Below are positions 560-12,690 of a stretch of 50,559 bases of DNA, piece by piece (within the stretch, counting starts at the first letter, position 1; every line of letters begins with the position of its first letter). The stretch comes from Sneathiella sp. (GTDB lineage: Bacteria > Pseudomonadota > Alphaproteobacteria > Sneathiellales > Sneathiellaceae). The stretch spans positions 1 through 50,559 of the forward strand of contig PAKP01000038.1 of the NCBI GenBank assembly GCA_002706985.1. The letters are read 5' to 3'. Both the position numbers and the translations under genes were made by a program. The notes beneath the pieces were generated by a model, which had not been told where the DNA came from, searched no databases, and worked only from the letters and a program-made list of their open reading frames with translations.

Positions 560-588
560 GTTGACGTTAAGAAAAATTAAGAGACCCC

Positions 589-617
589 TTGTATTTGTAA
601 CCTATACCTACCATATG
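589..617 (+). promoter_or_regulatory. Possible promoter of the RT leader
   Basis: TTGTAT (589-594), 17-bp spacer, CATATG (612-617). This is a moderate sigma70-type match. It lies just after the pnt terminator, where a promoter for a leader RNA plus RT transcript would be expected. A second weak candidate is TTGTAG (789-794), N16, TACTAT (811-816), inside the leader. Confidence 0.3.
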
Positions 618-638
618 TTGTGTGCTCAATGGAATCGG

Positions 639-767
639 CTACTGAGTCTGACTGTCGAGATTGTCAAGTACAATATTGATCACATCCTCGATGATGCCTT
701 CCGGCGTCAGCGCGGCTTGAATTAATCTGTATAAGATAATGAGCATCGCTCGTTCCTTGTCGGTCAT
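639..767 (-). CDS. 42-codon ORF antisense to the RT leader (uncertain)
   Basis: ATG to TAG encodes 42 residues beginning MTDKERAMLIILYRLIQ and ending DSQTQ. The residue pattern looks protein-like: two amphipathic helices separated by LTPEG. The frame stays open upstream of the ATG until a TAG next to the second direct-repeat copy (808-821). No good Shine-Dalgarno precedes the ATG. It may be a small gene convergent with pntB, chance, or a coding piece revealed only after reverse transcription of the leader. It is too short for routine gene callers. Confidence 0.3.
   Translation of the reverse strand: MTDKERAMLIILYRLIQAALTPEGIIEDVINIVLDNLDSQTQ
666..681 (+). repeat. Direct repeat copy 1 in the RT leader
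   Basis: AAGTACAATATTGATC. It matches 808-821 apart from two extra bases (AA). The copies start 142 nt apart, or 140 nt apart aligned at their right ends. They bracket the segment holding most of the antisense 42-codon ORF. Confidence 0.6.
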
Positions 768-807
768 AATAATATACCGCAATGCGTTTTGTAGTCCCGC
801 GTTGGCT

Positions 808-821
808 AAGTACTATTGATC
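808..821 (+). repeat. Direct repeat copy 2 in the RT leader
   Basis: AAGTACTATTGATC, a copy of 666-681 lacking two bases. Its GATC overlaps ATCGAG (819-824), which can pair with CTCGAT at 687-692, so both repeat copies sit next to potential stem elements. Confidence 0.6.
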
Positions 822-938
822 GAGAATGGTAGCGGTTAGTTGGCGGAATGCGGCGTGCCTTCGGGAGGCGTCTAGTTTATTAACTAGGATTCCGGGACAG
901 AATTAGTCTCCCGAAGTTTGCAATTTGAGGAGGGGGAA

Positions 939-2207
939 TTGGAGCAGGAATGGTTCAGGAAAAGGACGTATAAGCATTTCGATCGTCCAGTAAATTCTAT
1001 ATTTGTAGAAAATACTATTGATCCAAGCTTTGTTTCTACTCATTCATTTGCGCCACTTATTCAATTCAATAAAGTTACAAAAAAATACAAACTGTGCGCG
1101 GTAGAAAGAAAGCGTAAAGTTGTTAAGAAGTCGCGTGCAATTATGTATGCATCACATAAAGATGCATGTATTTTGTCTTACTATTCCTCCTTACTGGGGA
1201 ATCTTCTCAACAATTACTACTATGAAAATGATTTGGACGAGAACGTTATTGCTTATCGTTCATTGGGGAGAAGTAACTACGATTTTTCCGCCAAAGCATA
1301 TAACTTCGCTATGCTAGAGTCACCGGTTTCTGTTCTTGCTTTTGATGTCTCAGGTTTTTTTGATAACCTTGATCATAAGTTGTTAAAATCAAAGCTAAAA
1401 CGAATACTAAATATGGATGAGCTACCTAAAGATTGGTACGCCATATATAAGTTTGTGACAAAATTTCACTACGTAAAAAAAGACGAACTGAAGTTAATTC
1501 CGGCCTTTTTAAAATCTCTAGATACACCCGGTGTCGAGCCAATTGCTACCGTGGCTGAACTAAAAAGAGAAAAAATAAACTTTTATCCAAACCCCACTCA
1601 TGGAAGAGGTATCCCACAAGGCACTCCAATAAGTGCTACGCTTTCAAATTTATACTTGATGGCTTTTGATAAAGAAATTAAGGACTTTTGCGTATCTATT
1701 GGTGCTTTTTATCAACGTTATTCGGATGATATTTTGGTAATTTGCTCTCCTGAGCGAGAGGGCGAGGTTTCTAAGAAGATAAAATATTTAATGGATAGAG
1801 AAAAGCTTTCTTTAAATGAAGAAAAAACGGAAATCAGGACTTTTGATAAAAATAAAAGAGAATTTACCCCTTCCGATTTGTCCCAATACCTAGGGTTTTC
1901 GTTTGGATATAACGATGTTTTTATTCGACAATCCTCCATGGCCCGACAATGGCGAAAGATGCGCAAGTCGATTCAAAGAACTAAACGTTATGCAGAAATA
2001 AATATTCAGAGTGGCAAATCAAACAAAGTTTATACAAAGAAGTTGCGGCGGAAATTTTCGCCTTTGCAATATAGAAATTTTTCTTCTTATGCTCGACGGG
2101 GAGCACACGCATTTAATTCTCGTAGTATACTCAAACAGACACGACGTCTTGAAAGAGCATTTGAAATGGAATTGCAGAAAATAAAATCAGATCTTGAAAA
2201 GCCTTAA
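939..2207 (+). CDS. Lone defence-type (UG/DRT-like) reverse transcriptase
   Basis: An RNA-directed DNA polymerase of about 422 residues with no second domain. Motif A is FDVSGFFDNLDH, motif B is RGIPQGTPISATLSNLYL, and motif C is RYSDDILVI with both catalytic aspartates. Motif D (LNEEKTEI) and the E region (QYLGFSF) follow, then a basic C-terminal ~100 residues. There is no maturase or HNH domain of group II intron RTs, and I see no retron-like layout. The frame opens at TTG 918, but TTG 939 has GAGGAGGGGG just upstream and is the better start. The gene is much more AT-rich than its neighbours and sits between a terminator and a host lipoprotein gene, so it was probably acquired. Size and the long structured leader best fit DRT2; DRT9 or an unnamed UG group remain possible. 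A role in phage defence is inferred. Confidence 0.85.
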   Translation: MEQEWFRKRTYKHFDRPVNSIFVENTIDPSFVSTHSFAPLIQFNKVTKKYKLCAVERKRKVVKKSRAIMYASHKDACILSYYSSLLGNLLNNYYYENDLDENVIAYRSLGRSNYDFSAKAYNFAMLESPVSVLAFDVSGFFDNLDHKLLKSKLKRILNMDELPKDWYAIYKFVTKFHYVKKDELKLIPAFLKSLDTPGVEPIATVAELKREKINFYPNPTHGRGIPQGTPISATLSNLYLMAFDKEIKDFCVSIGAFYQRYSDDILVICSPEREGEVSKKIKYLMDREKLSLNEEKTEIRTFDKNKREFTPSDLSQYLGFSFGYNDVFIRQSSMARQWRKMRKSIQRTKRYAEINIQSGKSNKVYTKKLRRKFSPLQYRNFSSYARRGAHAFNSRSILKQTRRLERAFEMELQKIKSDLEKP

Positions 2208-2223
2208 CTCCAACGCTTTTTTT
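2197..2223 (+). terminator. Weak terminator overlapping the RT stop codon
   Basis: AAAAGC (2197-2202) and GCTTTT (2215-2220) form a 6-bp stem with a 12-nt loop containing the TAA, followed by a T7 run. The stem is short, so termination may be partial. Confidence 0.4.
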
Positions 2224-2295
2224 GTGATACGGCGCACTTGATCCTTCCGTGGAAAAGCTCATTTCCATGAGGTGGGTTATGGAAGGAGTGTGGCG

Positions 2296-2412
2296 ATGCG
2301 CATTTTACTGATCGGGGCGGCGCTGTTCCTGCTCGCGGCCTGTCAGACGACGACGGCGGAGCAGGACCCGAACCTGATGTGCTGCACCTGGGGCAATAAC
2401 CAGCACCCCTAA
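2296..2412 (+). CDS. Small lipoprotein, 38 aa
   Basis: An ATG preceded by GGAAGGAGTG opens a 38-residue ORF. It has a hydrophobic signal segment (ILLIGAALFLLAAC), a lipobox LAAC with Cys at residue 15, then QTTTAEQDPNLMCC and a short Trp/Asn/His-containing end. After lipidation the mature peptide would be only ~24 residues, anchored to a membrane, with a Cys pair (MCC). Alphaproteobacteria carry many such mini-lipoproteins of unknown role. Base composition is host-like, unlike the RT upstream. The strong ribosome-binding site and clear lipobox make it a likely real gene. Function unknown. Confidence 0.7.
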   Translation: MRILLIGAALFLLAACQTTTAEQDPNLMCCTWGNNQHP

Positions 2413-2428
2413 GGGTGCCGGCTCGCGC

Positions 2429-3046
2429 TCAGTAAAGATTTTCCTTATAGGCAACTTCGAGATAGGCGTCGGACTGTTCCGCGTCCATCCCGGCGATCTG
2501 ATCGGCGAGCACTTGACCGAGTGTCGGGAAGACGTTGCGCTCGACCTGCGTCTCCGGGTCCCAGAGCTTCGAGCGGATCAGCGCCTTCGCGCAATGCATA
2601 TAGGCCGAGGTGACCTTTATCAGCAGCACCGAGCGCGGCAGCTTGCCATCGACGGCGTGGGCCTTCATCAGCTCCGGATCGGTGCTGATCGTCGCCGTGC
2701 CGTTGATGCGCAGGGTCTCGTTGATCCCCGGCACCAGAAAGATCATGCCGACGGCAGGATTACGGAGGATGTTGATCAGGCTGTCGAGGCGGTTGTTGCC
2801 CGGCCGGTCGGGAAGGGCGAGGGTGTTATCGTCCAGCACCGTCACGAAACCCGGCGCATCGCCCCGCGGGGAGGCATCGGCCGTGCCGTCGCCGCCATCG
2901 GTGCTGAGCACGAGGAAGGGGGAGAGCGCGATGAAGTGACGGCAATGCTTGTCGAGCCGGGGAAGCTCCTTCTGCACGGCGCGTTCCGCCGGTTGCTTGT
3001 AGACGCTGTACAGCTCGTCAAAGGTGGTGATGCTGTGCTCACTCAT
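2429..3046 (-). CDS. Pyridoxamine 5'-phosphate oxidase-like FMN-binding protein
   Basis: A 205-residue protein with the split-barrel FMN-binding fold of the PNPOx-like group, close to the MSMEG_1061-type subfamily. Typical stretches are FIALSPFLVLSTDGGDGTADASPRGD, GFVTVLDDNTLALPDRPGNNRLDSL, then NILRNPAVGMIFLVPGINETLRINGTATI. The last resembles the flavin and dimer-interface region of these proteins. It is likely a cytosolic flavin- or F420-type oxidoreductase of unknown substrate, not vitamin B6 synthesis itself. The start ATG has GGGAGAAG a few bases upstream. It is divergent from the cytochrome b561 gene. Confidence 0.85.
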   Translation of the reverse strand: MSEHSITTFDELYSVYKQPAERAVQKELPRLDKHCRHFIALSPFLVLSTDGGDGTADASPRGDAPGFVTVLDDNTLALPDRPGNNRLDSLINILRNPAVGMIFLVPGINETLRINGTATISTDPELMKAHAVDGKLPRSVLLIKVTSAYMHCAKALIRSKLWDPETQVERNVFPTLGQVLADQIAGMDAEQSDAYLEVAYKENLY

Positions 3047-3128
3047 TGTTCTTCTCCCGCTATTTCCGTGTCCGGGACAGGATCGCCCGGGCGCCTTTCT
3101 TTGTACAGAAATCTTTGCGCAGGATCAA

Positions 3129-3156
3129 TTGCGGCAAGTCGGGAATGGGGTATAGT
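3129..3156 (+). promoter_or_regulatory. Promoter of the cytochrome b561 gene
   Basis: TTGCGG (3129-3134), 16-bp spacer, TATAGT (3151-3156), about 37 bases before the GTG start. Good sigma70-type match in the divergent intergenic region. Confidence 0.5.
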
Positions 3157-3192
3157 CGGGCGATATTCTGTCTCAATGAGGAGGCCTTGCCC

Positions 3193-3783
3193 GTGTTTTA
3201 TGACCGCTTCAGTCGTCTGCTGCATCTTCTCTTCGCCGTTGGCATCACCGCGCAGCTGCTGGTCAGCAATGTGATGGAGGAACCGGATGACGGCTATCCC
3301 GGGGATTTCTTCTACGAGATACATGAGCGGATCGGCATCAGCATCTTGGCGCTGCTGGTGATCTACTGGCTCTGGTCGCTGGTGCGCCGGGGGCCGCTCA
3401 GGCTCGGGCATCTGTTCCCGTGGCTGAGCGCGGCCGGGCGGCGGGCGCTGATCGAGGATATCCGCCGCTATATATCCGCGATCCTGACCGTGACCCTGCC
3501 CGGCACGAAGGAGCCGAGCCCGCTCGCCGGGGCGATCCAGGGTCTCGGGCTGCTGGTCGCCACGGGCATGGCCGCGTCCGGCTCGATGATTTTCTTTTTC
3601 GCGCCGGAGACGGGGGAACTGCGCGGCGCACTCCATGAGGTTGAGGATATCCATGAAGCCCTCGCCGTGCTGATGTGGACCTATCTCGCGCTGCATGTCG
3701 GCGCGGCGCTCCTGCATGAGATTTTCGGCCAGCGTATCTTCTTTCAGATGTTCAGCTTCCGCAAAAAAAAGCCGGACAGCTGA
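3193..3783 (+). CDS. Cytochrome b561-type membrane protein
   Basis: A four-helix membrane cytochrome b of about 196 residues. It would carry electrons between a quinone or a partner redox protein and heme b. It begins FYDRFSRLLHLLFAVGITAQLL, with a His in helix 1, then has EIHERIGISILALLVIYWLWSLVRRGP in helix 2, GLGLLVATGMAASGSMIFFF in helix 3 and IHEALAVLMWTYLALHVGAALLHE in helix 4. The His residues in helices 1, 2 and 4 are the expected heme ligands. I chose GTG 3193 because GAGGAGG lies 8 bases upstream. The open frame extends further upstream but without membrane-protein character. It converges with the chemoreceptor gene through a shared terminator. Confidence 0.87.
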   Translation: MFYDRFSRLLHLLFAVGITAQLLVSNVMEEPDDGYPGDFFYEIHERIGISILALLVIYWLWSLVRRGPLRLGHLFPWLSAAGRRALIEDIRRYISAILTVTLPGTKEPSPLAGAIQGLGLLVATGMAASGSMIFFFAPETGELRGALHEVEDIHEALAVLMWTYLALHVGAALLHEIFGQRIFFQMFSFRKKKPDS

Positions 3784-3797
3784 ACTGCCCGGCTTTT
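3767..3797. terminator. Bidirectional terminator
   Basis: AAAAGCCGG (3767-3775) pairs with CCGGCTTTT (3789-3797), with CAG/CTG pairing inside. It gives a T-run on both strands and overlaps the b561 stop. It serves both b561 (+) and the chemoreceptor (-). Confidence 0.85.
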
Positions 3798-3816
3798 CCC
3801 GCTCCCGGCGGTCTGG

Positions 3817-5592
3817 CTAGCTGGCCATGGATCGGATATCGGTAAGGACGGCGGCGACTTCCTCGCGCAGCTTGGCGGAGAATTCCGTCAGTTCCCCGAC
3901 GGAGTCCAGAAGCTGGTTTGCGGAACTGCCGGAGGCGGCCGCCATGTTGGAAACATCGGTGACCGAGCGGGAAACCTCCCCGGTGCTGGCCGAGGCCTGC
4001 TGCACATTGCGGGTGATTTCCAGCGTTGCCGAATTCTGTTCCTCCAGCGCCGTGGCCATGACCTGAACCGTCTCGTTGATGCGGACGATCATTTCCTCGA
4101 TCCGCTTGACTGCTTCGACCGCCTCGGTGGTGGCCGTCTGCATACCGTCGATCTGGCTGGTGATCTGTTCCGTCGCATTGGTGGTCTGGGCGGCCAGGCC
4201 CTTGACCTCGGAGGCGACGACGGCGAAGCCCTTGCCGGCCTCTCCGGCGCGGGCGGCCTCGATCGTGGCGTTCAGCGCCAGCAGGTTCGTCTGGCTGGCG
4301 ATATTGTTGATCAGCTCGATGACATTGCCGATCTCGCCGGCGGAGACCGCCAGCTTGCCGACCACTTCATCGGTTGATTCCGCGACGTCCATCGTTTCCT
4401 TCGACAGCTTGGCGGAGACATCCACCTGGCGGGCGATTTCCTGCAAGGAGGCGGAAAGCTCCTCGGCGGCGGAGGCGACCCCGCTGACATTGCCCGCGGC
4501 CTGTTCAGAGGCGGCGGCGATGGAGGTGGAGTGACGGTCCGTGTCGGCGGCGCTTGTCACCATGCTCCTTGCCTTTTCCTCCATGGTCGCGGCGGCGCCG
4601 GAAATCTGCTGGGCGACCGCATTGACGGAGGTTTCGAGTTTCTGGGCGATGGCCTGGGCGAAGCTGATCCGCTCGGCCGTGGATTTGTCGGCCGCTTCCT
4701 GATCGCGGCGTTTTTCCTCCTCGGCGCGCTGCATCTCGGCCTGGCGGCGGCTTTCCGCCTCGGCGGCCTTCTCCTCGGCATCCTTTTCGCGCTGGATTTC
4801 AAGGGCCTTGACCTTTTCCGCATTGGCCTGGAAGACCTGCACGGCGCGGGACATATCGCCGACATCATCCTTGCGGTCGAGCCCGACGATGGTGATGTCC
4901 TGCTGGCCGTTGGCAAGCGAGGTCATGGCTCCTGTCAGCTGGCTCAGCGGCTTGCCGATAAAGCGGTTCAGAAGGAAGCCGGTGAGCAGCATGATACCGA
5001 ACAGCGCCGCCCCGGTCAGCAGCAGTTGCTGCATCAGGTTGGCGGACAGCCTGTCATTCAGCCGGTTTAGGCTCCAGGCGACGGCGGCATAGCCGACAAG
5101 CTCATCCTTGGGGGTGACAACGGGGGTCAGAACAATCTGGTGCATGCCGGTCATTTCGGAATAGGCGGCATTATCGCCCAGCCCTTCCTTGAGGCGGGCG
5201 AAGTCACCGGCGATGTCGACGGTCGGCAGGCTGTCCGACTTATATTCAGTGACGACATTGCCATCGCTATCGAAGGTGACGATATCGGCAAGGACACTGT
5301 CCTCATTGCCGACCAGCTCATGATAGACTTCAGCGATTTTATCGGGCTTTTTCCATTTGAGCGCCCCGGAGAGCTGCTCGGCCATCAGGTTGGTGATGGT
5401 CAGGTTGTTGGAAATCGCCAGATTCTCAAGGTCCTGACGCTGGTTCTGCAGCCCCAGGAACACGAGAAGCGAGAGACCCATCAGGGTCGTGGCGAAAACG
5501 ACAAGAAGAATTTTACGGCTTACGGTCAGCTTGACCGCGGCTTTCTTTTTGTCAACTTCGGTGTCCATGGTCGTCGGGGTCTCAACGCTCAT
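3817..5592 (-). CDS. Methyl-accepting chemotaxis protein
   Basis: A 591-residue transmembrane chemoreceptor that signals to CheW/CheA. It has a short cytoplasmic N-terminus, TM1 near residues 27-47, a ~140-residue periplasmic ligand domain and TM2 near 187-208 ([19 protein letters not shown]). Then come a HAMP domain and a Lys/Glu/Ala-rich coiled coil ([20 protein letters not shown]). The signalling hairpin tip reads [43 protein letters not shown]. No CheW-binding pentapeptide is seen at the C-terminus. It follows the secreted sensor gene on the same strand with a 48-bp gap, so the two are probably co-transcribed. The ligand is unknown. Confidence 0.95.
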
Positions 5593-6381: not shown

Positions 6382-8376
6382 TCAGGCGACCTGACGACTG
6401 CGGTCGCGCGGCAGGGAGACGGTGACCCGCGTGCCGTAGCCGAATTCACTTTCGATATTCAGCGTGCCTTCATGAGCGGCGACGAAGGACTGCACGATGG
6501 AGAGGCCGAGACCAGCCCCCTCATGGGTGATGAGGGAGTTCGAATGGCCCTTGACGAAGGGGTCGGTGATCTTGGGAAGCTGTTCCTTCCGGATGCCGTC
6601 GCCGGTGTCGGCCACGATGATCACCACCTTGTCGTCATCGGCTTCTGCGGTCAGGGTAACCTTGTCTCCCGAATGGGAGAATTTGACGGCATTGGTCAGG
6701 AGGTTGAGGAAGATCTGGCGGAGCGCGGTTTCATCGGCGGAGATGACGGGCAGGCTCGCATCCGCGACCATCGTCAGCATGATTCCCTGCTTGCGGGCGC
6801 GCTGACGGACCGCTTTCACACAGCTCGACAGGAGATCGAGAAGGGCGACGGGCTCCATCACCATCTGGCGCTTGCCCAGCTCTATCGCCGAGATATCGAG
6901 CACCTCGTCGATCAGCGCCAGCAGATGCTTGCCGCTGTGATTGATGTCCTTGGCATACTCGATATATTTATGGTTGCCGACCGGACCGAAATACTGACCG
7001 GTCAGGATATCGCTGAACCCGATGATCGCGTTGAGCGGGGTCCGGAGTTCATGGCTCATGGTCGCCAGGAATTTCGATTTCGACTGGCTTGCCTCCTCGG
7101 CTTTTAGAAGCGCATCGCGCAGCGCCTGCTCGGTCTTCTTGTTGCTGCTGATGTCGGTCAGGGTGCAGCCGATGGCCGTGACATTGCCGTGATCGTCGAT
7201 GATCGGAAACATATGACCCAGCGTCGGCATGATCCCGCCGCCAACGACGGGACTGAGATACTCATATTCCGTCATTTCCTTGGTTTCGAGGGTCTGCCGC
7301 TCCTGATCCTGCACTTCCTTGCTGTAGGCCTTGGGGAAGAAGTCGGCCGCCGTCCGCCCTTCGATGAGGGCATGTTCCGGATTGAACAGTTCATGCCAGC
7401 GGGAGTTGGCATGGATGTAGTTGCCCTTGGCGTCCTTGATGATGATGGCGGAGGGGGTATGCTCGATAAAGGTCCGGAACAGCTTGTCGCTCGCCTTCAC
7501 TTTCAGCTGACGCACCATCGCGAGATGGATCAGCCAGGCAACGGCGATACAGAGCAGGATGAGCGTGAACAGGACGATCTCGTCGACCATCGTTTCGTAG
7601 GCCGCAATCGTCTCGTCCTTCGGCATCAGGTTGATGGTCCAGACCCGGTTGCCAATCAGTATCCATTTGCTCAGCACGTCATCCCGCCCGGCCATGGTAT
7701 CGACCGTGCCGAAGATGCGCCGGTCCTTGTCCATGAGCATGACGTCATGCTTGCTCAGCAGGGTTTCCGGCATGGCGGCCTGCAGCAGCGGTTCGGTCCG
7801 GAAGACGATATTCACGAAGCCGGTCAGCCGTTCCATCTTGATGACCGGGATATAGGCGACAAAGCCGTTTCCGCCCTGGGTCAGCGGGAATGGAATGGTC
7901 ACCTGCAGACGGCCGGTTGCTTCGGCCTCTGCAATTGCCGCTGCGGCGAACAAGACGTTGCGCACATTCAGGTTCTGCGCTGCTTCATTTCCCTCGAGCG
8001 GCGTGACCCAGCGGATCACCCCCTTGGAGTCGATCCAGTTGATCGCCTGGAAATCGGTAAAAAGATCGTGGATATAATCGGTCTGCTTGAGGAATTCCTC
8101 GCGATTGGCAATCGTCCCATCGGCCAATCCGTCGCGGAGCTGCTCGCCGATAGCAAGCCGTGTCGATATATGGGATTCCAGCCGCGCCGCGAAATTGGCG
8201 AGGTCATTGCGCGCCTCGGTCACATGCCCCTCGGATTCCGATGTCGGGGTCACTGCCCAGGCGGCGACAACGATCAGGATCATGAACACGCCAATGACGG
8301 ACGGCACCAGCGTCGTCCGACGCGGGAGCCGCCCGAGACCGCGCCGCAGATTGTCAATTGCCGAGTTCATTGTCAT
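6382..8376 (-). CDS. CHASE-PAS sensor histidine kinase
   Basis: A 664-residue membrane sensor kinase. TM1 is at about residues 25-42 and TM2 at about 266-287; between them lies a periplasmic CHASE-like domain (FTDFQAINWIDSKGVIRWVTP). A PAS domain follows at about 300-412 (HTPSAIIIKDAKGNYIHANSRW). The HisKA motif is FLATMSHELRTPLNAIIGFSDI with phospho-acceptor His442, and then come the HATPase boxes NLLTNAVKFSH, VADTGDGI and GAGLGLSIV. No receiver domain is fused, so it needs a separate response regulator, and none is encoded nearby. It lies upstream of the Cache/chemoreceptor pair on the same strand but across a 156-bp gap. The signal is unknown. Confidence 0.93.
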   Translation of the reverse strand: MTMNSAIDNLRRGLGRLPRRTTLVPSVIGVFMILIVVAAWAVTPTSESEGHVTEARNDLANFAARLESHISTRLAIGEQLRDGLADGTIANREEFLKQTDYIHDLFTDFQAINWIDSKGVIRWVTPLEGNEAAQNLNVRNVLFAAAAIAEAEATGRLQVTIPFPLTQGGNGFVAYIPVIKMERLTGFVNIVFRTEPLLQAAMPETLLSKHDVMLMDKDRRIFGTVDTMAGRDDVLSKWILIGNRVWTINLMPKDETIAAYETMVDEIVLFTLILLCIAVAWLIHLAMVRQLKVKASDKLFRTFIEHTPSAIIIKDAKGNYIHANSRWHELFNPEHALIEGRTAADFFPKAYSKEVQDQERQTLETKEMTEYEYLSPVVGGGIMPTLGHMFPIIDDHGNVTAIGCTLTDISSNKKTEQALRDALLKAEEASQSKSKFLATMSHELRTPLNAIIGFSDILTGQYFGPVGNHKYIEYAKDINHSGKHLLALIDEVLDISAIELGKRQMVMEPVALLDLLSSCVKAVRQRARKQGIMLTMVADASLPVISADETALRQIFLNLLTNAVKFSHSGDKVTLTAEADDDKVVIIVADTGDGIRKEQLPKITDPFVKGHSNSLITHEGAGLGLSIVQSFVAAHEGTLNIESEFGYGTRVTVSLPRDRSRQVA

Positions 8377-11721: not shown

Positions 11722-11794
11722 CTTGATCTCCTTTCAGTTGAATGACTCATGACGTTCACTCAAAGCAGGATGGCGGGGACAGGTTATCTTCTCA

Positions 11795-11811
11795 ATTACC
11801 TCACGGGTAAT
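11795..11811. promoter_or_regulatory. Candidate operator in the divergent region
   Basis: ATTACC-TCACG-GGTAAT, an inverted repeat with 6-bp arms. It lies between the membrane protein gene (-) and the XRE/MmyB regulator gene (+), where an autoregulatory site is expected. Confidence 0.4.
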
Positions 11812-11868
11812 GTTCCTGATTTTGTTTTCGGGCTATTGTGGATGCCGGAAATGAGAAAAGGAGAGACT

Positions 11869-12690
11869 ATGACCGCGTCAGCCATGCAAACCCCGGTGCC
11901 CGAGCTTGGCAGGCTCCTCAAGCACTGGCGGCAGGTTCAGGGGCTCAGCCAGCTCGATCTCGCCCTGGAGGCGGGAAGCTCGGCACGGCACTTGAGCTTT
12001 ATCGAGACCGGCCGCTCAAGCGCGAGCCGGGAGATGGTGCTGCGCCTTGGCGACGCGCTGGAATTGCCCTTGCGTGAACGCAACCGCCTCTTGAACGCGG
12101 CGGGCTACACGGCGGCCTACAGTGCGCGCCCGCTTGGGGATGCGCATCTTGAAACCGTGCGCAACGCCCTCGATCACATATTGAAGCAGCAGGAGCCTTT
12201 TCCTGCGATCGTGATGAACCGGTGCTTCGATATCCTGATGATCAACGCGGCGGGGGCGAAGCTGATGGCGATGCTCGGCCTTGGCGATGCGGGGGCGGAG
12301 GGGCCGCCGAATGTGCTGCGGCTGACGCTGCACCCGGACGGGCTCCGCCGTGTGCTGAAGGACTGGGAACCGGCGGCGCGGCATATTGTCGAACGCGCCC
12401 ACCGGCAGCTCAAGGGCGCGGAGGAGAATGACCCGCTCCGCAAATTACTGGCCGATGTGCTGGACTATCCGGGCGTGCCCGAAAGCTTCGCGGCCGAAAA
12501 TCCGTCCCATGACGCGCTGCCCGTTCTGCCGCTGGAATTCGTGATTGAGGGGGTCACCCTGTCCTGGATCACGACGGTCGCGAGTTTCGGAACCCCGCAG
12601 GATGTCACGGCGGAGGAAATCATGATCGAGAGTTTCTTTCCCGCCAATGCCGAGACCGAGGCCGCCGTCCGCGCGCAAAACCAGGCGTAG
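11869..12690 (+). CDS. XRE-family regulator with MmyB-like ligand domain
   Basis: A 273-residue DNA-binding protein. The N-terminal HTH covers residues ~10-70 (GRLLKHWRQVQGLSQLDLALEAGSSARHLSFIETGRSSASREMVLRLGDAL). The C-terminal ~190 residues form the MmyB-like PAS-related ligand domain: PAIVMNRCFDILMINAAGAKLM, NVLRLTLHPDGLRRVLKDWEPAARHIVERAHRQ. In this family the domain is thought to bind small acyl-type ligands and the regulators usually control a neighbouring divergent gene. The start ATG at 11869 has AAGGAG five bases upstream and is preferred over earlier in-frame ATGs at 11749 and 11851. Confidence 0.9.
   Translation: MTASAMQTPVPELGRLLKHWRQVQGLSQLDLALEAGSSARHLSFIETGRSSASREMVLRLGDALELPLRERNRLLNAAGYTAAYSARPLGDAHLETVRNALDHILKQQEPFPAIVMNRCFDILMINAAGAKLMAMLGLGDAGAEGPPNVLRLTLHPDGLRRVLKDWEPAARHIVERAHRQLKGAEENDPLRKLLADVLDYPGVPESFAAENPSHDALPVLPLEFVIEGVTLSWITTVASFGTPQDVTAEEIMIESFFPANAETEAAVRAQNQA

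Follow-up and report, generated by a model that had tools for sequence, protein, structure and literature searches.

The stretch of DNA analyzed here (the window) comprises 50,559 nucleotides of Sneathiella sp. (contig PAKP01000038.1 of assembly GCA_002706985.1) and contains, at positions 560–2223, a solitary reverse transcriptase (RT) gene preceded by a leader. With a probability that we put at about 0.85, this locus is a DRT2 system, in which the RT likely copies a template in the noncoding RNA (ncRNA) of the leader repeatedly into tandem cDNA that encodes an endless, growth-arresting protein. On phage infection the RT would copy the ncRNA from nucleotide 785 to nucleotide 654 over and over; between rounds it would jump from the GTC at the 5′ end to the GTT at the 3′ end. 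The tandem copies in the cDNA would restore a promoter, and with it a reading frame without end, and the repetitive hydrophobic protein made from that frame would arrest the cell ahead of phage release. Support at the sequence level comes from the family of the RT, a covarying and pseudoknotted leader, predicted promoter halves that join at 17 nt, a ribosome site with an in-frame ATG, and an open repeat divisible by three; the predicted neo repeat is the same in kind, in length and frame, in 44 relatives. Transcription of the ncRNA, priming at its 3′ end, rolling-circle copying, second-strand synthesis, neo transcription, toxicity, and abortive infection would follow by analogy with KpnDRT2, as described in the parts of PMC12039810 and PMC11100668 consulted.

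In those parts (PMC12039810, PMC11100668), the KpnDRT2 RT copies nucleotides 29–148 of a 280-nt ncRNA into tandem repeats. The trinucleotide ACA is found at the template start and just past its end and is thought to allow strand realignment, and TTGACA and TATAAT from opposite template ends meet at a distance of 17 bp. The length of the repeat is divisible by three, and its one stop-free antisense frame encodes Neo, which arrests growth. Conservation of ACA is described across the 42 close KpnDRT2 relatives aligned. The part of the preprint consulted (PMC11100668) also states that annotation of Neo is more difficult in the more divergent clades and that rolling-circle copying and neo expression may proceed in other ways.

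The RT gene (939–2207, + strand) encodes a protein of 422 residues with a single Pfam domain, RVT_1, and begins at a TTG codon behind the ribosome-binding site GAGGAGGGGG (927–936, + strand), as the original prediction, made on the window sequence alone, had proposed; a further in-frame TTG is present upstream at 918. The conserved RT residue Asp136 and the motifs GIPQGTP (residues 224–230) and YSDD (residues 261–264) are intact. The GC content is 34–37% in segments within the gene as compared with 59–65% at 2251–5000 and 62% at 1–500, consistent with the lone AT-rich RT first described. At the sequence level the assignment to Drt2 is settled. PADLOC reports Drt2 with E = 3.9e-128, its two Drt2 models scoring 426.6 and 344 bits versus 93.3 bits for the best non-Drt2 family, and the best solved matches in the Protein Data Bank (PDB) are three DRT2 sequences (E = 8.5e-68 to 2.3e-65), which bears out the expectation of a DRT2-like defense enzyme. 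There is distant similarity to group II intron and retron RTs around motifs B and C, but membership of either class, which would have overturned the original prediction, has next to no probability. The group II intron model TIGR04416 scores 88.1 bits against a cut-off of 300, and the retron models St85, Ec67, and TIR type score 58.0 against 235, 28.5 against 450, and 27.6 against 600; DRT2 scores far better, and both candidates were rejected.

A protein search gave 2167 homologues at E ≤ 0.001, of which 120 were listed; among the matches listed, the closest, apart from the window protein, has an identity of 55%. At least three of those listed (P0069, P0072, and P0105) already carry the name "antiviral reverse transcriptase Drt2." DRT2 is therefore not new to the alphaproteobacteria, where genes are already annotated Drt2, and the suggestion that an alphaproteobacterial system of this kind might be new falls to that extent; what is left of it concerns the jump word and the Rfam family considered below. 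Three database Drt2 proteins (P0025, P0058, and P0069) have N-terminal extensions that resemble a translation of the conserved 3′ end of the ncRNA (CVRG... or similar), and their start codons have perhaps been called too far upstream.

The leader was compared with loci from a single genome scan. Of its 80 loci, 44 with an RT 41–53% identical to that of the window in the best segment and with enough upstream DNA were taken as the clade (L005–L041, L043–L048, and L064); L042, with 62 nt upstream, was dropped, and 35 loci at RT identities of 36% or less were excluded from the clade test. The clade does not comprise all alphaproteobacterial DRT2 because the excluded L055, L066, L075, and L077 are alphaproteobacterial by title; the titles of L025, L027, and L032, within the 44, say only Pseudomonadota or Proteobacteria. 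The leader can be aligned between the window and all 44 loci, and the alignment supports a conserved predicted ncRNA with a 5′ handle, a template, and a pseudoknotted 3′ scaffold. In an alignment of 28 non-redundant clade loci (window 619–921), this ncRNA extends over approximately 620–921 (+ strand). The remainder of the region first proposed as ncRNA (560–938) is, at 560–619, the end of the pnt terminator region and a probable ncRNA-RT promoter (589–617, + strand; TTGTAT, about 17 nt, and a CATATG/CCATAT region), in which TTG is nearly constant across the alignment and the −10 element is weak. The leader had also been called noncoding and stem-rich. Besides the RT frame (first TTG at 918), no open reading frame (ORF) of at least 60 residues overlaps 560–938, in keeping with the first part, but folding of the whole leader gives z = −1.14, with 13 of 100 shuffles equal or better, and the structure is visible by comparison only.

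The handle is a hairpin at 626–645 (+ strand; RNAalifold columns 8–27) with compensatory changes. For the scaffold (786–921, + strand), RNAalifold on 28 non-redundant sequences (window 784–921 and 27 loci) gives 30 pairs, 24 of which have changed on both sides somewhere. A pseudoknot between GUCCC (794–798, + strand) and GGGAC (894–898, + strand) was added by eye and then counted. With it the structure has 35 pairs, and 96.8% of cells are paired versus 31–51% when the structure is slid along the alignment, although a structure derived from the same rows tends to beat its slid versions; none of 500 shuffles reaches any of five measures, a result that related rows may also give without structure. 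The stronger part of the covariation evidence is the number of pairs changed on both sides, 27 with the pseudoknot versus 7–10 when slid. The pseudoknot is 98.6% paired across the 28 rows, and at its second pair (14–133) the window alone has U-A, so that both sides have changed with pairing kept.

When the window was left out of the covariance model (R2), the model still recovered 784–921 at 94.2 bits (E = 1.9e-20) and matched nowhere else in the window at E values up to 10. A model that includes the window (R1) matches all 19 further clade loci given. Of these, L002 and L003 coincide with L043 and L018, on which the model had been built, and most of the rest nearly duplicate rows used in training. 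On 36 non-clade loci R1 gives no convincing match (best 17.3 bits, E = 0.094). Four of 385 genomes from the class have an RT match and three a match to the scaffold model, all three among those four. Two of the three scaffold matches are L018 and L043, and the RT of the fourth genome, which has no scaffold match, is 35% identical to that of the window. The conservation of the leader and the covariance model together uphold the original view of a defense-type DRT with an upstream ncRNA.

The last 69 nt of the window scaffold (853–921, + strand) resemble Rfam family RT-13 (RF03017), with 68.5 bits and E = 4.3e-13, 0.6 bits below the gathering score of 69.1. This match and the match of the model built without the window indicate that the leader is more than chance. 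Of nine clade loci given to Rfam, seven reach the RT-13 gathering score (L018 and L030 are below it), and among six non-clade loci RT-12 (RF03016) is found in L050, L052, and L053 and neither family in L056, L059, or L082. RT-12 thus lies on the ncRNA scaffold of three of the four loci given that have the ACA type of repeat, all three gammaproteobacterial. The RT-13 model spans the outer 3′ helix domain only (67 positions), without template, handle, or 5′ pseudoknot arm. The RT-n motifs reportedly go back to a survey of intergenic regions from 2017. On these matches, RT-13 is likely the scaffold of this DRT2 clade and RT-12 that of ACA-type systems.

The predicted template (654–785, + strand) has 132 nt. 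Alignment and junction tests place its start at the 5′ jump motif (654–656, + strand), which is GTC here and GTT in most relatives, and its end just before the 3′ jump motif GTT (786–788, + strand), the first bases of the scaffold. Reverse-complemented and concatenated, it presents in order TTGACA, 17 nt, TATATT, AAGGA, ATG, and a stop-free frame of 44 codons. The putative −35 element TTGACA (662–667, − strand) and −10 element TATATT (771–776, − strand) would form a promoter across the repeat junction; a Shine-Dalgarno-like AAGGA (754–758, − strand), with a similar sequence in 43 of the 45 loci (the window and the 44), precedes an ATG at 746–744 that would start the predicted neo repeat (654–785, − strand), and the junction itself is free of stops. 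A consensus promoter scan misses the neo promoter, as expected for a promoter that is split.

When the two alignment columns that delimit this template are carried over to every locus as they stand, the unit in all 45 loci is divisible by three and has a frame without stops. The units are 129 nt long in 34 loci, 132 nt in six, and 66, 114, 120, 123, and 126 nt in one each. The other two antisense frames contain stops in 45 and 43 loci, and the scaffold lengths, taken as a control, leave a remainder of 0, 1, or 2 in 5, 14, and 26 loci, respectively. The start column holds ATG in 41 loci, TTG in two, GTG in one, and a gap in one, and is in frame in all; the promoter spacer is 17 nt in 40, the other five (L022, L034, L038, L040, and L043) being best at 15 or 19. 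The neo frame has a grand average of hydropathy of 0.65 as compared with −0.29 and −0.98 in the other antisense frames. Two loci added afterwards, both on plasmids (L112 of Rhizobium and L113 of Neorhizobium), have GTT/GTT and an open unit of 129 nt. Their unjoined, linear neo frames (L112 2686–2814 and L113 2680–2814, both − strand) are annotated as hypothetical proteins (WSG77506.1 and AYD04577.1), neither of which is likely to be a gene on its own.

The trimers at the two ends of the template agree in 41 of the 45 loci, always as GTT, and in 15 of 18 clusters formed at 70% identity. Among offsets within 25 nt the predicted junction scores highest, followed by 31 loci (an overlapping frame one base upstream) and 27; on the 18 clusters the corresponding numbers are 15, 11, and 7. 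The exceptions are the window and L033, with GTC/GTT, and L018 and L028, with GTT/GTA. A blind scan for a jump motif with a promoter works on most clade members. As a positive control, it returned ACA with a 17-nt spacer and an open frame as the top row in six of seven loci of one gammaproteobacterial RT branch (L050, L052, L053, L056, L060, and L061; L051 is the exception), in agreement with the published rule. In many distant loci the matches of the blind scan are inconsistent, and nothing is claimed for these loci.

A tree of 76 RTs, all DRT2 relatives or the window itself, was built with L042 excluded and also, as short frames, L032, L037, L064, and L082; it covers neither KpnDRT2 nor other UG families. 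The window falls in a GTT-clade branch of 42 rows (100/100), whereas the six ACA rows and L051 form a separate branch (100/99); the other rows belong to neither. As read from these alignments, the jump word differs by clade and both copies change together. In this clade GTT would take the place of the ACA of KpnDRT2, with GAC annealing to GUU in the window. We lean toward a general form of this proposal, that DRT2 lineages kept gene-writing and swapped the realignment word at both ends (ACA versus GTT); on that view, ends that match, rather than a fixed word, would be all that realignment requires, as in telomerase, and a single G-U wobble, as in the window, would suffice. In L032, L037, and L064, the RT frame is shorter than 330 residues from the start of the match (frameshift or stop), and the neo frame is nevertheless open. 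In L082 (Marinimicrobia), which lies far outside the clade and has no RT-13 match, the top scan row about 160–280 nt upstream of the RT match is GTT with a 120-nt open unit and a 17-nt spacer. Three Dyella loci (L059, L062, and L068) have open units of 129 nt at matching places, with an 18-nt spacer and the shared words TTG, ATTGCA, and ATTAC, and perhaps represent a third jump word; alternative motifs inspected in Dyella, in a second Paracoccaceae group, and in delta loci led to no assignment.

Several observations weigh against the DRT2 reading or limit its details. The NCBIfam Drt2 model gives the RT 387.1 bits, three bits short of its equivalog cut-off of 390. The consensus promoter scan found no ncRNA promoter, and the −10 element TATATT of the rebuilt promoter is one base off consensus. 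The junction was set on the window after the alignment had been viewed and GTT seen in other rows, so its choice was not blind. When the junction is shifted by amounts of equal remainder, all 45 units stay open nearly everywhere within 6 nt, so that what the frame test establishes is the remainder of the length and the frame, not the exact bases; these are predicted from the identity of the trimers and the spacing of the promoter. Of the 45 units, 27 are also open in some frame on the sense strand. Because shuffled templates of matched length are often open in some frame (56% overall, and 26–28% for the window in dinucleotide shuffles), openness alone is weak evidence, as is the frame of the window by itself. 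Joint openness over the 18 clusters amounts to 10^-4.6, or 10^-13.2 when one third is charged for each length, both of which overstate the case because the clusters still share ancestry.

Substitutions in the template number 1230, 1054, and 1265 at codon positions 1, 2, and 3. There is no third-position excess, and the amino acid sequence of Neo is therefore not visibly conserved and is loosely constrained at best. This lack of a codon-position signal would suit a Class 2 DRT or a retron-like RT in which the ncRNA-templated product acts as DNA and the open frame is a by-product, and the part of PMC12483538 consulted reports another DRT that produces DNA homopolymers. Against such a by-product stands a unit that is open and divisible by three in 45 of 45 loci, with a start column of 41 ATG, two TTG, one GTG, and one gap, a Shine-Dalgarno-like sequence in 43, and promoter halves that join at 17 nt in 40, and we regard a DNA product as very improbable.

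The imperfect motif pair of the window bears on a different alternative. Its template ends are GTC/GTT, not ACA at both, and GAC on GUU makes two Watson-Crick pairs and one G-U pair; the blind scan missed the window because GTC/GTT is not a perfect repeat. Among the 60 relatives searched for the RT, 23 of the others belonging to the genus, and the 24 genomes of the genus searched for the scaffold, the own genome is the only positive in each case. Because the locus is absent from the congeners searched, its maintenance does not prove a function in the host. The copy could thus be a DRT2 whose rolling-circle step is impaired or has moved, GTC/GTT having decayed while RT and scaffold persist in a weak or dead system, as the short RT frames of the related L032, L037, and L064 might also suggest. 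Against this stand the intact RT motifs, the pseudoknot preserved by a compensatory change of the window's own, the conserved frame and length of its repeat, and L033, which shares GTC/GTT and has an open frame. We consider this alternative unlikely, although less so than a DNA product, and retain an active DRT2 system as the preferred reading.

The gene next to the locus has its nearest named relatives in the alphaproteobacterium Sneathiella, at up to 96% identity. The left edge of the cassette lies in the T-run of an intrinsic terminator hairpin at the end of pntB (528–557; listed on the − strand by the stem scan). The site was compared with 22 congener pntB loci and the second pntB match of the own genome (L086–L108); this second match, 81% identical, is on another contig (G000:C50:13788-14234). 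In L089 and L086 the site is free of the cassette, and the match to window positions of about 559–561 runs straight into that at about 2210–2215. The cassette is therefore an insert of about 1.65 kb between imperfect copies of a T-rich direct repeat, GCTTTTTTGT on the left (552–561) and GCTTTTTTTGTG on the right (2215–2226). Relative to the empty site, it consists of the leader and the RT gene only, one gene with an RT domain only and no accessory gene. In L090 window position 563 is joined to 2421, and in L094, L092, and L099 there are 0.97–1.25 kb of different DNA between the same flanks; L094 has small lipoprotein-like ORFs there, and L092 and L099 have a single long ORF apiece. The remaining congener loci have different neighbors or no right-flank match within the stretch examined. 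The site after the pntB terminator is variable within the genus, being empty or occupied by DRT2 or other DNA.

In the order of genome G131, one of 31 genomes was positive and that one was already known. None of 15 stretches of viral contigs contained a relative, a pattern search there gave no matches, and phage records gave three distant matches only. PADLOC, run on ten proteins of the first 12.7 kb of the window, gave two weak domain-level matches among the neighbors (the C-terminal part of 6382–8376 and a helix-turn-helix in 11749–12690), neither of which was accepted as a defense gene.

Neither the GTT word and its link with RT-13 nor the names or numbers of RT-13 and RT-12 were found in the DRT2 literature searched, which includes part of PMC12596737 and does not extend to the journal version of the preprint or to supplements. 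The GTT word and the identities of RT-13, as the clade scaffold, and of RT-12 are new in this sense, and part of this may already be in print. With GTT taken as the jump word, the known DRT2 mode fits this clade. The result is a set of 47 predicted neo repeats, 45 from the loci compared and two from plasmids, together with a natural experiment on the requirements of the realignment word, and a likely function for RT-13 and, in ACA-type systems, for RT-12. It also carries a warning: the neo frame, in its unjoined form, is already being entered by annotation pipelines as a hypothetical protein in its own right.

The closest well-described system is KpnDRT2 of Klebsiella pneumoniae (DRT2/UG2; PDB 9c0i and others). 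Both are lone RT genes (425 residues in KpnDRT2 and 422 in the window) preceded by an ncRNA (280 and about 300 nt) with a 5′ handle, a template, and a pseudoknotted 3′ domain. In both, promoter halves are split between the template ends and join at 17 nt, the repeat is divisible by three (120 and 132 nt), and a single endless antisense frame has its ribosome-binding site and start after the −10 element, these features being predicted for the window. The two differ in jump motif, ACA in KpnDRT2 but GTC/GTT in the window, and in motif C, YCDD versus YSDD, and the window RT lies on a branch apart from the ACA-type gammaproteobacterial relatives on a tree that does not itself contain KpnDRT2. The Rhizobium Drt2 (for example WSG77505.1 on CP140798.1) has the same anatomy as the window, with GTT/GTT and an open unit, but its RT is 48% identical, its unit is 129 rather than 132 nt long, its repeat is a perfect CGTT, and it is carried on a plasmid.

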